From: Ramlibacter agri
GTDB lineage: Bacteria > Pseudomonadota > Gammaproteobacteria > Burkholderiales > Burkholderiaceae_C
Direction of reading: 5' to 3'
Assembly: GCF_012927085.1 (NCBI RefSeq)
Contig: NZ_JABBFX010000001.1
Coordinates: forward strand, 2,480,001-2,544,000
Length of the DNA stretch: 64,000 nt
Position 1 is the stretch's first letter. The number at the start of each line of letters is the position of its first letter. Of this stretch, positions 13,186 through 28,348 are shown piece after piece. The notes beneath the pieces are model-generated. The model made no database searches, had not been told where the DNA came from, and was given only the letters and a program-made list of their open reading frames with translations. The translations under genes were made by a program, and so were the position numbers.

Positions 13186-13893
13186 ATGGAATCGCACTAC
13201 GGGTCGTTTCTCCAGTTGCTGCCTGTTTCAACTGCCGTTCTCGAAGACTCCATCGCGAAGCTCGGAGAGACCGTTGCTGGAGCCGAGGCGGCGCTCGTGC
13301 TGCGCGCCACCGAGAAGCGCAGGCGCGAGTTCGCAGCGGGCCGCCTGCTCGCGCATCGAGCCTTGGCCGCACTGGACCCGGGACACGGGTCCATCGGAGC
13401 AGACGGGGATGGGGTGCCAGCGTGGCCGCCGGCCACGACCGGTTGCATCACCCATGGAGCGGGCCGGGTGGCCGTTGCGGTTGCGTCGCGAGGCGATGTG
13501 CGAGGCATCGGCATCGACATGGAAGCGGTCGGCCGCTTCCACAGGGGACTGGAGCCGCTGGTGCTTTCCGGTCGCGAGAGGGGGCAGGTCGAGGCCGTGA
13601 GCCATGACGCGCGCCAGGCCCGCGCCGCCGTCCTGTTCTGCGCGAAGGAAGCGTGGTTCAAGTGCCAGTTCCCGTTGCTGCGGCGGCGGCTAGGCTTCGC
13701 CGATGCGGACGTCGCGGTCAACTGGGAATCCGGGCGCTTCGTGATCCGCCCGCCCGGCGCGGTGGATTCGCGCGGCGAAGTCGCAGGCTGCAGTTCCGTG
13801 CACGAAGGCATTGCCCGGGCGGCGATCGTGCTGGCCACCGGCCCCGCTACGGAAGCGCTCCTGCAGGCATGGCGCCTGCCAGGCGCGGCCTGA
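13186..13893 (+). CDS. 4'-phosphopantetheinyl transferase (EntD/Sfp-related)
   Basis: This 235-residue enzyme would transfer phosphopantetheine from CoA to the ACP serines of the neighbouring PKS and ligase. Motifs: RRREFAAGRLLAHRAL, GCITHGAGRVAVAV (P2-like, usually GSITH), IGIDMEAVG (metal-binding Asp and Glu) and FCAKEAWFKCQFPL (catalytic KEA motif). The ATG at 13186 is chosen because it gives the usual N-terminal length. An upstream in-frame ATG at 13069 adds 39 residues of AT-rich, non-coding-like sequence. The gene converges on the thioesterase gene and the two overlap by 47 bp. A dedicated PPTase here supports the island being an autonomous biosynthetic cluster. Confidence 0.92.
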   Translation: MESHYGSFLQLLPVSTAVLEDSIAKLGETVAGAEAALVLRATEKRRREFAAGRLLAHRALAALDPGHGSIGADGDGVPAWPPATTGCITHGAGRVAVAVASRGDVRGIGIDMEAVGRFHRGLEPLVLSGRERGQVEAVSHDARQARAAVLFCAKEAWFKCQFPLLRRRLGFADADVAVNWESGRFVIRPPGAVDSRGEVAGCSSVHEGIARAAIVLATGPATEALLQAWRLPGAA

Positions 13894-14611
13894 ACTCCGC
13901 GAAGAACGCAGCGGCGTGGCTGCGGAAGAAGAAGTGGCCGCCCGGAAGCAGCACGGTCTCGCAAGGGGCGGTGGTTTCTTCGGCCCAGCCCGCGAGGAGA
14001 GCAGGCGGAACCGCCGTGTCCTCCCTGCCTCCGAAGACGGTGATGCCGCACGAGAGCGGCTCGCGCGCGGCATGGCGGTACGCCTCGACCAGCGTGAAGT
14101 CGGCGCGGAGCAGGCGCGTGAGATAGCTCCGCATCCCCGCGTCCGCCAGCAGCGCCGCGGGCAGTGCATCGTGGCGGCTGCGCACGCCGTCGAGAAAGGC
14201 CGCGTCCGGCAGCTGGTAGATCGGCTCCTGCGAATGCGGCAGGCGCGGGGCGCGCTGCGCGCCCACGAACAGGTGCAGTGGCCGCGGTGCGCCTTGCCTG
14301 GCGAGTTCATGCGCCAGGTCGAAGGCGACGAACGCGCCGAGGCTGTGGCCGTACAGGCAATACGGCAAGTCCAGCAGCGGCAACACCGTCCCGGCCACGT
14401 CGGCGACCAGCGCCTGCATGTCGGACAGCGGCGCTTCCATCGCGCGCGCATCGCGGCCCGGCAGGCTCGGGCAGGCGAGTTCGATGCCGGCCGGCAGGTG
14501 CTCGGGCCAGGTGCGGAAGATGGCCGCACCGGCGCCCGCATGGGCGAAGCACAGCACCCGCAGCCGCGGCGGTCCGGCGCCCGGCTGGCTGGTGAAGATG
14601 CGCACGCTCAC
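13847..14611 (-). CDS. Type II thioesterase (GrsT-like)
   Basis: A 254-residue alpha/beta-hydrolase typical of external editing thioesterases, which clear stalled or wrong acyl groups from carrier proteins. Visible motifs: LCFAHAGAGAAIFRTW at the N-terminus, the nucleophile elbow YGHSLGAFVAF, the acid VFGGREDTAVP and the catalytic His in LLPGGHFFF. The start is a GTG at 14611 whose overlap with the PKS stop (GTGA) couples translation to the PKS. The PKS itself ends in a PLP domain and has no integral thioesterase, so this protein is likely for proofreading and not for product release. Confidence 0.93.
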   Translation of the reverse strand: MSVRIFTSQPGAGPPRLRVLCFAHAGAGAAIFRTWPEHLPAGIELACPSLPGRDARAMEAPLSDMQALVADVAGTVLPLLDLPYCLYGHSLGAFVAFDLAHELARQGAPRPLHLFVGAQRAPRLPHSQEPIYQLPDAAFLDGVRSRHDALPAALLADAGMRSYLTRLLRADFTLVEAYRHAAREPLSCGITVFGGREDTAVPPALLAGWAEETTAPCETVLLPGGHFFFRSHAAAFFAEFRPRLAGAMPAGALP

Positions 14612-26448: not shown

Positions 26449-28205
26449 CGGCAAGCACGCACCCCGTCACCCTGGGCAGCCGCCTCACCGTCGACGACGT
26501 GGTGCGGGTTGCCAGGCAGCATGTGGCCGTCGCGCCCCTGGGCCCTGAAGCCGTCGCAAGGATGCAGCGCAGCGCGCAGTGGGTCGAACAGGTCGTGCGG
26601 GACGTGGCCGGCGGCTCCAGCCACCGCGCCTACTACGGCATCAACACCGGATTCGGGGCCCAGGCGGGCCGCAGCACGCTGGGCAGCCCTCACCTGACGG
26701 AGGTCCTGGGGCGCAACCTCATTGCCAGCCACTGCGTGGGAGTCGGCGCCTGGCTGCCCGAGGAAGCAGTGCGCGCCACCCTGCTGGTGCGTGCGCAATC
26801 CCTGGCGCAGGGTTTCTCCGGCGTGCGGCCGGAACTGGTTGCCAAACTCGTCGCCATGCTCAATGCCGGCGTCTACCCCGCGGTTCCGGAGCAAGGTTCG
26901 CTGGGTGCCAGCGGCGACCTCGCGCCGCTGGCCCACATCGCGCTGATGATGACCGCGCCGCCTGCTGCCGGAAGCGGCGACGCCCCGGTGGACGCCACCG
27001 ACGGCGAGGCCTTCGTCCGCTGCGCTGCGCTGCCGGGCGCAGCGGTCGACCGGCTGCACATCGACGAGGACTACGAGAGCGGCACGCAAAGCGTCTGGCA
27101 GCGGGTGCCGGGTGCACAGGCGATGCGGGAGGCCGGCGGCCAGATCGCGCTGCGTGCCAAGGAAGCCCTCGCCCTGCTGAATGGAGCCACGGTCTCGGCC
27201 GCGCTTGCCGCGCTCGTCGTGCGCGACATGGCCAACCTGCTGGCGAACGCGGAACTCGCCGTCGCCGCGTGCGTGGAATGCATCGGCGGCTTCCGCGACC
27301 CCTTCTTTCCGCAAGTGCACGAGGCGCGCGGGCATGAAGCCGCAGGGCGGGCGGCGCGCAACATCCTCGGCTACCTGGAAGGCAGCGAGCTCGCGGACCC
27401 GGGCGATCTCCACACGGACCCGCAGCGGGTCCCGCCGCAGGACCCTTACTGCGTCCGTTGCGCGCCGCAGGTGCTCGGCACCGCGGAGGACACGCTGGCG
27501 CTGGCCCGCCGGTGGGTGGAGATGGACCTGAACGCGGCCACCGACAACCCGCTGGTGTTCCCCGCGCTGGCGCGCGACTACAAGGCGGTGTCCGGCGGCA
27601 ATTTCCACGGTGAGCCCATCGCCCTGGCCATGGACTTTCTGGCCATCGCGGCCACCGAGGTGGCGAGCCTGTCGGAGCGGCGGATGTTCACACTTTGCGA
27701 GCTGCCGGCGCAACGGTTCCCCGAGCAGGCGGGCAACCGTTTCCTCATCGCGGAGCCGCGGCAGACCGCGGGGCTCAACTCAGGCCTGATGATGCTGCAG
27801 GCGACCGCCGCTGCCCTGGTCTCGGACTGCAAGGTGCTCGCGCACCCGGACAGCGTGGATTCCATCCCTTCCTCCGGCAACCAGGAGGATCACGTGAGCA
27901 TGAGCCTCAACGCCGCCCTGCACGCCCGGAAGGTCCTGAGGAACGCCGAGACCGTCGTCGCCCTCGAGCTCCTTTGCGCGGCCCAGGGCCTGCATTTGCG
28001 GACGTCCACCGGACCGGGTGACGGGGGAAAGCCGGGACGTGGCGGCGCGGCGGTCCGCGACGTCCTGCGCAAGAGCGGATGGGAACCCGTCGAACGGGAC
28101 CGCGTCATGCAGGAGGACATCCGGCTCGCCATCAGGCTCGTGCGCAGCGGCGCCTTCCTGCAGAGGCGGACGGGGACAACGTTCCCCAGCGAGGAGCACC
28201 CATGA
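26445..28205 (+). CDS. MIO-type aromatic amino acid ammonia lyase (HAL/PAL/TAL family)
   Basis: The 586-residue enzyme eliminates ammonia from an amino acid to give an alpha,beta-unsaturated acid. The MIO prosthetic group should form from A155-S156-G157 in GSLGASGDLAPLAH. Other hallmarks: YYGINTGFG (catalytic Tyr64), QDPYCVRCAPQVLG, GGNFHGEP and SIPSSGNQEDHVSM. The inner-loop selectivity position reads Ser95-His96 (NLIASHCVGVG), as in histidine ammonia lyases, not His-Leu (TAL) or Phe-Leu (PAL). It is some 75 residues longer than HutH, with extra sequence at about 170-225. No hut genes are nearby. In this cluster it may make a starter acid or remove an amino group; substrate is unproven. Confidence 0.9.
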   Translation: MTASTHPVTLGSRLTVDDVVRVARQHVAVAPLGPEAVARMQRSAQWVEQVVRDVAGGSSHRAYYGINTGFGAQAGRSTLGSPHLTEVLGRNLIASHCVGVGAWLPEEAVRATLLVRAQSLAQGFSGVRPELVAKLVAMLNAGVYPAVPEQGSLGASGDLAPLAHIALMMTAPPAAGSGDAPVDATDGEAFVRCAALPGAAVDRLHIDEDYESGTQSVWQRVPGAQAMREAGGQIALRAKEALALLNGATVSAALAALVVRDMANLLANAELAVAACVECIGGFRDPFFPQVHEARGHEAAGRAARNILGYLEGSELADPGDLHTDPQRVPPQDPYCVRCAPQVLGTAEDTLALARRWVEMDLNAATDNPLVFPALARDYKAVSGGNFHGEPIALAMDFLAIAATEVASLSERRMFTLCELPAQRFPEQAGNRFLIAEPRQTAGLNSGLMMLQATAAALVSDCKVLAHPDSVDSIPSSGNQEDHVSMSLNAALHARKVLRNAETVVALELLCAAQGLHLRTSTGPGDGGKPGRGGAAVRDVLRKSGWEPVERDRVMQEDIRLAIRLVRSGAFLQRRTGTTFPSEEHP

Positions 28206-28348
28206 TGACTTCGATCCGAAGGGGCATCACACGCCGGCGCCTGGCCTGGATCCTCTGGATCGCGGTGACGGTTGTCGGCCTGTGCGGATCGTCGAGCGCC
28301 TCCGATGGCTTGCAGGACATCTGCACGGCGCGCGGTGGGGTCTCCTAG
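28202..28348 (+). CDS. 48-residue ORF with signal peptide, coupled to the ammonia lyase
   Basis: The ATG at 28202 overlaps the ammonia-lyase stop as ATGA, the same coupling used throughout the cluster. The product has a basic N-terminus (RRGITRRR), a hydrophobic core (LAWILWIAVTVVGLCG) and a small-residue stretch (SSSAS) that would suit signal peptidase I. This leaves a mature peptide of only about 14 residues (DGLQDICTARGGVS) with one Cys. It could be a secreted peptide, a small membrane protein or a decayed gene start. Its 3' end touches the convergent SWIB gene. I do not recognise it. Confidence 0.45.
   Translation: MMTSIRRGITRRRLAWILWIAVTVVGLCGSSSASDGLQDICTARGGVS

Follow-up and report, generated by a model that had tools for sequence, protein, structure and literature searches.

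Positions 13186–28348 of a 64,000-nucleotide window on the Ramlibacter agri contig NZ_JABBFX010000001.1 (the window being the whole stretch of DNA that was analysed) hold a divergent, two-stranded gene island that appears to encode a histidine-primed polyketide pathway, the product of which would be an alpha-amino ketone with an imidazolyl chain. A rough probability of 0.55 is given to this reading. The island contains a set of biosynthetic genes with intact motifs, including an ammonia-lyase that has the active-site residues of a histidine ammonia-lyase (HAL) and a reducing polyketide synthase (PKS) that ends in an alpha-oxoamine synthase (AOS) domain. The lyase and the PKS-AOS recur together on further contigs, and their sequences covary.

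The first four steps of the pathway are inferred from family chemistry. The lyase would deaminate L-histidine to urocanate, which an acyl-AMP ligase would adenylate and load onto its own acyl carrier protein (ACP) domain after this had been armed by a phosphopantetheinyl transferase (PPTase) that presumably serves both carrier domains of the cluster. A single, fully reducing PKS module would then extend the chain with malonyl units, probably iteratively, and the fused AOS would release it in a decarboxylative condensation with glycine, alanine or serine. The resulting alpha-amino ketone would carry, at its far end, an imidazole or vinylimidazole. The fifth step, like the chain length, is a guess: a heme-oxygenase-like diiron oxidase (HDO) would oxidise an intermediate or the product. 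A desaturase may add an unsaturation that is not general to the family, a thioesterase (TE) may clear stalled chains and an ACT-domain protein is a possible amino-acid sensor.

The gene island and its lyase

The features of the island are as follows.

13186–13893, plus strand: PPTase, an Sfp/EntD-like 4'-phosphopantetheinyl transferase (PF17837, 2.9e-18; PF01648, 3.2e-11; scanned on the longer frame 13066–13893)
13847–14611, minus strand: type II TE (GHSLG motif; PF00975, 1.5e-34)
14608–22092, minus strand: PKS-AOS of 2494 amino acids (aa), KS-AT-DH-ER-KR-ACP-AOS (Pfam and NCBIfam domains, motifs)
14608–15810, minus strand: the AOS domain of the PKS, dependent on pyridoxal phosphate (PLP), residues about 2095–2494 (PF00155 at 2132–2486)
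22089–23951, minus strand: LIG, an acyl-AMP ligase fused to an ACP (PF00501, 7.5e-67; PF13193; PF00550; longer frame 22089–24257)
23965–24810, minus strand: HDO (AlphaFold model, fold matches, ligand columns)
24999–25388, plus strand: ACT_7 protein, ACT (PF13840, 1.6e-13; 1zhv, 3.7e-15)
25405–26448, alternative start 25363, plus strand: membrane fatty-acid-desaturase-type enzyme (PF00487, 1.2e-25; longer frame 25339–26448)
26445–28205, plus strand: HAL-type ammonia-lyase with a methylidene-imidazolone (MIO) cofactor (PF00221, 1.4e-145; HAL residues)
28202–28348, plus strand: 48-aa open reading frame (ORF) with a hydrophobic stretch, doubtful as a real gene, its sole basis being a 4-bp overlap with the lyase

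On the minus strand the reading order is HDO (24810–23965), LIG-ACP (23951–22089), PKS-AOS (22092–14608) and TE (14611–13847), with the PPTase convergent with the TE. Domains and motifs confirm the original prediction that the PPTase, TE, ligase-ACP, PKS-AOS, HDO, ACT protein, desaturase and MIO lyase form one island. It had also seen 4-bp overlaps at nearly all junctions, which holds for four of the six same-strand junctions (LIG/PKS, PKS/TE, desaturase/lyase and lyase/48-aa ORF), the other two being gaps of 13 bp (HDO/LIG) and, with the chosen desaturase start, 16 bp (ACT/desaturase). A promoter and terminator scan of the ACT–HDO intergenic region gave no signal.

The lyase is identical to the Pseudomonas putida HAL at Y53, S82, H83, the MIO triad (Ala-Ser-Gly), N195, Q277, Y280, R283, F329 and E414, positions to which catalysis and histidine recognition are usually attributed. 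Among the best 120 of 8000 lyase matches, the window protein included, the equivalents of Ser82, His83, Asn195, Tyr280, Arg283, Phe329 and Glu414 are present in all 120 and those of Tyr53, Gln277 and Gln413 in 119. His83 and Glu414 are presumed to recognise the histidine side chain. Glu414 is the telling residue, because an annotated tyrosine 2,3-aminomutase used as a control retains the His83 equivalent; it has glutamine in place of Glu414 (DNQDVVSM), as does the second control, an annotated phenylalanine aminomutase (DFQDIVSL). A second lyase is encoded on a different contig of the genome; it scores above the HutH cut-offs (718.7 and 683.2) and has the same NQEDHVSM motif as the cluster lyase. 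Since a separate HutH is present, catabolism need not depend on the cluster enzyme. On its active site the cluster lyase is of the HAL type, though no HutH equivalog, and its substrate is likely to be histidine. Because the active site is of this type, urocanate is the likely starter, and its use by the PKS is considered probable.

A number of points weigh against this assignment. The lyase falls under both NCBIfam HutH cut-offs (503.0 of 524 for NF006871 and 472.2 of 539.15 for TIGR01225) and carries, between its MIO loop and KEALAL, an extra segment that is conserved and about 40 aa long (around residues 172–220). The spacing from anchor to anchor is 84 residues in the window lyase, 75–98 in the 103 of the 120 listed lyases that have both anchors and about 46 in the P. 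putida HAL. Low scores and extra segment together mean that the enzyme could have shifted its substrate or become an aminomutase. Given the retained His83 equivalent, moreover, only the glutamate discriminates, and it does so against two controls. The ligase gives no hint of its substrate, since the solved structures nearest to it are a mixture of fatty (FadD13), feruloyl, oxalate, malonyl and benzoate ligases. Urocanate could also be a side product, with the chain starting elsewhere.

Such doubts could be taken further, to an aryl start. In this case the MIO enzyme would be a tyrosine or phenylalanine ammonia-lyase or aminomutase, as MIO enzymes of biosynthetic clusters often are, flexirubin being a case with a tyrosine ammonia-lyase, and the ligase would load a cinnamoyl, coumaroyl or beta-amino acid unit to give an aryl-chain amino ketone. 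The low HutH scores and the extra segment fit this idea, as do the solved relatives of the ligase, which include feruloyl-CoA synthetase (8wev, 3.4e-48) and benzoate and 4-coumarate ligases. However, the Glu414 equivalent is present in every listed lyase and is glutamine in both aminomutases, and the HutH models (503 and 472 bits) outscore the tyrosine and phenylalanine models (300 bits or fewer) by far, so that an aryl start appears improbable.

A further HAL-like protein is encoded on a plasmid of Streptomyces sp. NBC_00841 (around 12001–13551 of the stretch retrieved). This plasmid lyase, the closest in identity (43.5%), keeps the NQEDHVSM motif but differs in the first selectivity motif, which is altered to NACG, and in the shorter length of its extra segment; no other cluster gene was found at E 1e-5 within the 25.5 kb examined. 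It represents a second divergent HAL branch.

The synthase, its release domain and the diiron oxidase

The PKS contains the ketosynthase motifs TACSAS, EAHGTGT and KTNTGH, the acyltransferase motifs GHSVG and HAFH, the latter presumably of the malonyl type, motifs of the enoyl and keto reductases and an ACP with LGLDSL, and is read from these as one fully reducing module. Two features do not sit well with this. The dehydratase of the window protein has HxxxD where the usual form is HxxxG; among the listed relatives (the best 120 of 356 matches, the window protein included) the motif was found in 101, with glycine in 69 and aspartate in 22. Likewise, the ketosynthase motif D[TS]ACS was found in 78 of the 95 full-length listed proteins.

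Within the AOS domain the PLP lysine lies in GLSKAF, and each of K2342, H2221, D2296 and H2299 is unchanged in no fewer than 118 of the 120 PKS-AOS proteins listed. The lysine, histidine and aspartate align with those of solved serine palmitoyltransferases (SPT), which are the best solved match (2x8u, 1.3e-37), and release as an alpha-amino ketone is likely on this basis. The original prediction had proposed an alkyl or aryl alpha-amino ketone, of which the amino ketone is upheld by the conserved AOS residues, but the alkyl or aryl start is at odds with the histidine-type residues of the lyase. The substrate loop, aligned with Escherichia coli KBL, E. coli BioF and two annotated ALAS sequences, reads ATYPAVP and resembles KBL (FFYPVVP) and ALAS (INYPTVP), whereas BioF (IRPPTVP) and SPT (ARPPATP) differ. 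The argument from this loop motif leans towards glycine as the amino acid substrate, against which it must be set that a PKS-AOS from a Planktothrix agardhii plasmid also has a YPxVP loop (VYPSVP).

The fold of the HDO is supported by an AlphaFold model and by fold matches. The proposed 3H/3C ligand set, E109, H120, E183, H225, E229 and H232, comes from the sequence pattern, no metal coordinates being involved, and is invariant in 44 of 44 proteins. In a wider alignment of 109 of the 110 listed proteins the ligand columns are kept in 105 to 109 of the 109; apart from gaps, the exceptions are three substitutions (H225 to P, H225 to R and H232 to S). The cluster gives genomic context to this family, in which just one of the 110 listed proteins bears the precomputed Pfam name PF14518. 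A search with the HDO sequence against solved structures gave no useful match. The protein has the fold and the 3H/3C pattern of HrmI, HamA, BesC, PolF and CADD, but only 15–17% identity to HrmI and HamA, and a glutamate where the aspartate of HxxxDxxH is usual. N-oxygenation of an intermediate or of the product is a first guess. It is conceivable, but doubtful, that the enzyme acts on the amine of imidazolyl alpha-amino ketones released from urocanate-primed chains and leaves an oxime, a hydroxylamine or a nitro group in its place. The outcome would be a two-headed amphiphile with an imidazole at one end and an N-oxy-ketone at the other, perhaps a copper or iron binder, as a patchily spread product family.

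Relatives, rarity and genomic setting

Presence on the same contig was inferred for the listed relatives from an equal size of the longest source contig and compared with a sliding control. The lyase and the PKS-AOS are found together on at least 10 contigs besides that of the window (sliding control mean 0.24, maximum 2), the HDO and the lyase on at least 7 common contigs (mean 0.5, maximum 4) and the HDO and the PKS on at least 5 (mean 0.07, maximum 1). Two of the lyase/PKS-AOS pairs are backed by shared species names, Thiothrix lacustris and Leucothrix arctica; other names among the matches listed are Crenothrix polyspora (lyase only) and a Chthonomonadaceae metagenome-assembled genome (MAG; PKS-AOS only), and the listed relatives come mostly from metagenome sources. 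Sequence distances correlate between lyase and PKS-AOS (r = 0.81, n = 12, permutation p = 0.0001) and between HDO and lyase (r = 0.83, n = 9, permutation p = 0.0001), although part of this could be attributable to shared whole-genome descent. That the lyase and the PKS-AOS form a functional unit is strongly supported. The genes had been predicted to function together, and for this pair both the shared contigs and the correlated distances agree with the prediction, the opposite outcome, of the two never occurring together, being contradicted by the same contigs.

The recurrence of the HDO is a different matter. None of the 10 lyase/PKS contigs is among the HDO matches listed, including that of the closest PKS (86% AOS identity), and the contig of the window is the only one in all three sets of matches listed (two of these sets being the best 120 of larger ones), which counts against a fixed set of nine genes. 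Since no other lyase/PKS contig appears there, the HDO may be optional in the cluster. Two MAGs, titled Caulobacteraceae and Acetobacteraceae, do carry ACT, HDO, MIO lyase, LIG, PKS-AOS and TE, but both were found through the HDO, so that its presence in them is a matter of selection. The case for counting the HDO, ACT, ligase and TE as parts of the unit is less well supported, as it draws on three genomes of which two were picked out by way of the HDO.

The cluster of the Caulobacteraceae MAG is spread over two contigs. The start of the ligase, an acyl-CoA-dehydrogenase-like gene, ACT, HDO, lyase and a short-chain dehydrogenase/reductase (SDR) lie on L003, and the end of the ligase, the PKS-AOS and the TE on L024; no PPTase match was found at E 1e-3 in the stretches examined. 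The Acetobacteraceae MAG has ACT, HDO, lyase and LIG on one contig (L004/L026), together with the first part of the PKS, and on a second (L025) most of the remaining PKS-AOS, then TE, PPTase and SDR, the PPTase being convergent with the TE here too. The TE adjoins the PKS-AOS in both MAGs. Identity to the window PKS-AOS is 56% over residues 6–2491 in the Caulobacteraceae MAG, and 55% over 682–2491 and 72% over 7–471 in the Acetobacteraceae MAG.

As to the nine-gene set originally put forward, its core stands in the two MAGs, but the stretches examined of either MAG gave no match to the desaturase or the 48-aa ORF at E 1e-3, on which grounds the desaturase is a doubtful core gene and the secreted-peptide ORF a doubtful part of the system. 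The acyl-CoA-dehydrogenase-like gene (1700–2992 of L003), in a locus without the desaturase of the window, is weakly like the RedW/PigA carrier-bound prolyl dehydrogenases. In the Acetobacteraceae MAG the HDO gene is broken into two frames (10001–10770 of L004, with the same in L026), either as a pseudogene or through an assembly error, and the lyase and ligase beside it match over nearly their whole length. The ACT gene is divergent from the HDO in all three loci (window, L003 and L004); this conserved placing makes its product a candidate regulator with an amino acid as ligand. Among solved structures Atu0741 and the arginine sensors CASTOR1/2 are nearest to the ACT_7 protein.

In both MAGs the HDO directly precedes the lyase on the same strand, an arrangement that raises the possibility that the HDO acts first, on histidine, urocanate or urocanyl-ACP, so that the starter would be an oxidised imidazole or a shortened unit. 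The correlated HDO and lyase distances agree with this, and in the substrate-bound structures of AetD, UndA, HrmI, PolF and MboA, as far as they are covered by the part of PMC13108848 available, the substrate binds Fe1. The compounds that these enzymes act on are for the most part amino or fatty acids. The HDO of the window, though, lies in the ligase/PKS arm and not in that of the lyase, the enzyme is missing from the listed matches for all 10 lyase/PKS contigs and the fold matches are uninformative on substrate. An early role of the HDO is unlikely.

It is also unlikely that the product is a sphinganine-like lipid with an acetyl or fatty acyl start and serine added by the AOS, the lyase providing nitrogen or belonging to an unlinked branch: the nearest solved relatives of the AOS (SPT) and of the ligase (the fatty acyl ligase FadD13), the SgaAB precedent (available part of PMC12134224) and the SDRs near the cluster in both MAGs (144–147 bits against a 3-ketodihydrosphingosine reductase model, under its cut-off of 400 and not the best match) all favour it, but an unlinked role would not explain a lyase that shares at least 10 other contigs and covaries with the PKS-AOS, and the YPxVP loop is the KBL/ALAS form, not the RPP of BioF/SPT.

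Few sequenced genomes have the gene set. When 84,980 species, each represented by one genome, were scanned by pattern, two loci came up, and a scan of viral contigs gave none. Seven genome draws, which overlap in part and whose first pass scores few candidates per genome so that misses are possible, added no further member. With the HDO model, a family draw (299 genomes) returned the own genome and two weak distant matches (3.4e-23 and 4.7e-4), a phylum draw (398 genomes) the own genome and one weak match (5.9e-24) and a genus draw (59 genomes) the own genome only; at E 1e-30, draws of 249 and 199 genomes each returned the starting MAG only. The lyase returned only the own genome at E 1e-120 in a class draw (369 genomes) and only the starting MAG at E 1e-150 in 398 genomes. 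Of these three weak HDO matches, two were inspected at their loci, where no other cluster gene was found at E 1e-3. The HDO was unmatched in a plasmid collection and the ligase DNA was unmatched in phages in a near-mode search.

The scanned genes flanking the island are non-biosynthetic, with type II secretion genes on one side and a SWIB protein on the other. A mobile element was considered and rejected, there being no tRNA and no Rfam match in the window and a GC content of 0.655–0.728 across 2-kb steps. Elsewhere in the window two DUF5666 proteins are encoded on opposite strands (29283–30728 and 31611–33548) near a DUF6502 protein; the frame 31611–33548 overlaps the frame 30725–32341, and one of these calls may be wrong. 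A KaiC-like ATPase with two matched stretches (37017–38855) has a PAS-histidine kinase-receiver protein nearby (34663–36360).

Comparison with known systems

If the histidine-primed reading is true, a chemical class, imidazole-headed amino-ketone lipids, becomes predictable from a searchable gene signature, namely a PKS-AOS that shares its contig with a HAL-type lyase, mostly of about 570–615 aa, in which the extra segment is conserved. A dedicated HAL copy within a cluster would then mark the pathway, and could explain some duplicate HAL genes.

The original prediction knew of no counterpart to the combination. As a whole it appears undescribed in the openly licensed literature searched, where no urocanate-primed PKS combined with an AOS and no urocanate-derived PKS products other than the imidacins came to light, and where a single paper, a review of a fungal banana disease (PMC9002641), mentions alpha-oxoamine synthase together with polyketide synthase and ammonia-lyase. 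Each half, on the other hand, has a precedent that the prediction did not name.

For the priming half this is the imidacin (imd) pathway of Stigmatella aurantiaca Sga15, in which feeding of labelled histidine and urocanate indicates that urocanate is the starter of a PKS product (PMC11301661, in the part available, as for all that is said here of imidacins). The imidacin PKS resembles that of the window in its adenylation domain, its KS/AT/DH/ER/KR/ACP domains and its proposed iterative use. Its HAL is encoded far from the cluster, whereas the window has a divergent HAL-type lyase inside the cluster, and it yields a cyclopropane-bearing free acid, with no AOS or HDO named in the available text, in contrast to the AOS release proposed for the window. 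Free-acid release and cyclopropanation dependent on S-adenosylmethionine are not features of the island, where the AOS is fused at the PKS end and the nine ORFs scanned with Pfam include no cyclopropane synthase. The comparison is one of descriptions.

For the release half, the bacterial PKS and AOS of Pseudomonas fluorescens MYb115, PfSgaAB, make C24–C28 sphinganines (PMC12134224, again in the available part). They resemble the window in pairing a single-module iterative PKS with an AOS of the SPT kind, but are two separate proteins, with no lyase or ligase named in the available text, whereas the AOS of the window is the C-terminal domain of a 2494-aa frame and is accompanied by a dedicated loading set. 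Fumonisin-type pathways likewise release a reducing PKS chain by an AOS, as proposed for the window. They are fungal, have a separate AOS and are not known to include an ammonia-lyase.

The PKS-AOS of P. agardhii NIVA-CYA126/8, on the 90-kb plasmid p3, has its AOS at the C-terminus and a fatty acyl-AMP ligase nearby, as in the window, with an identity of about 38% over the whole protein and 28% in the AOS. The stretch has 14 annotated features, none of them named as a lyase or HDO. The locus (6520–24201) also contains an alpha/beta hydrolase and three annotated glycosyltransferases, and might be a glycosylated sphingoid-type pathway.

The cluster of the window is thus classed as a member of neither the imidacin nor the SgaAB pathway, but as one that would join urocanate priming with a PKS-AOS and that adds an HDO.

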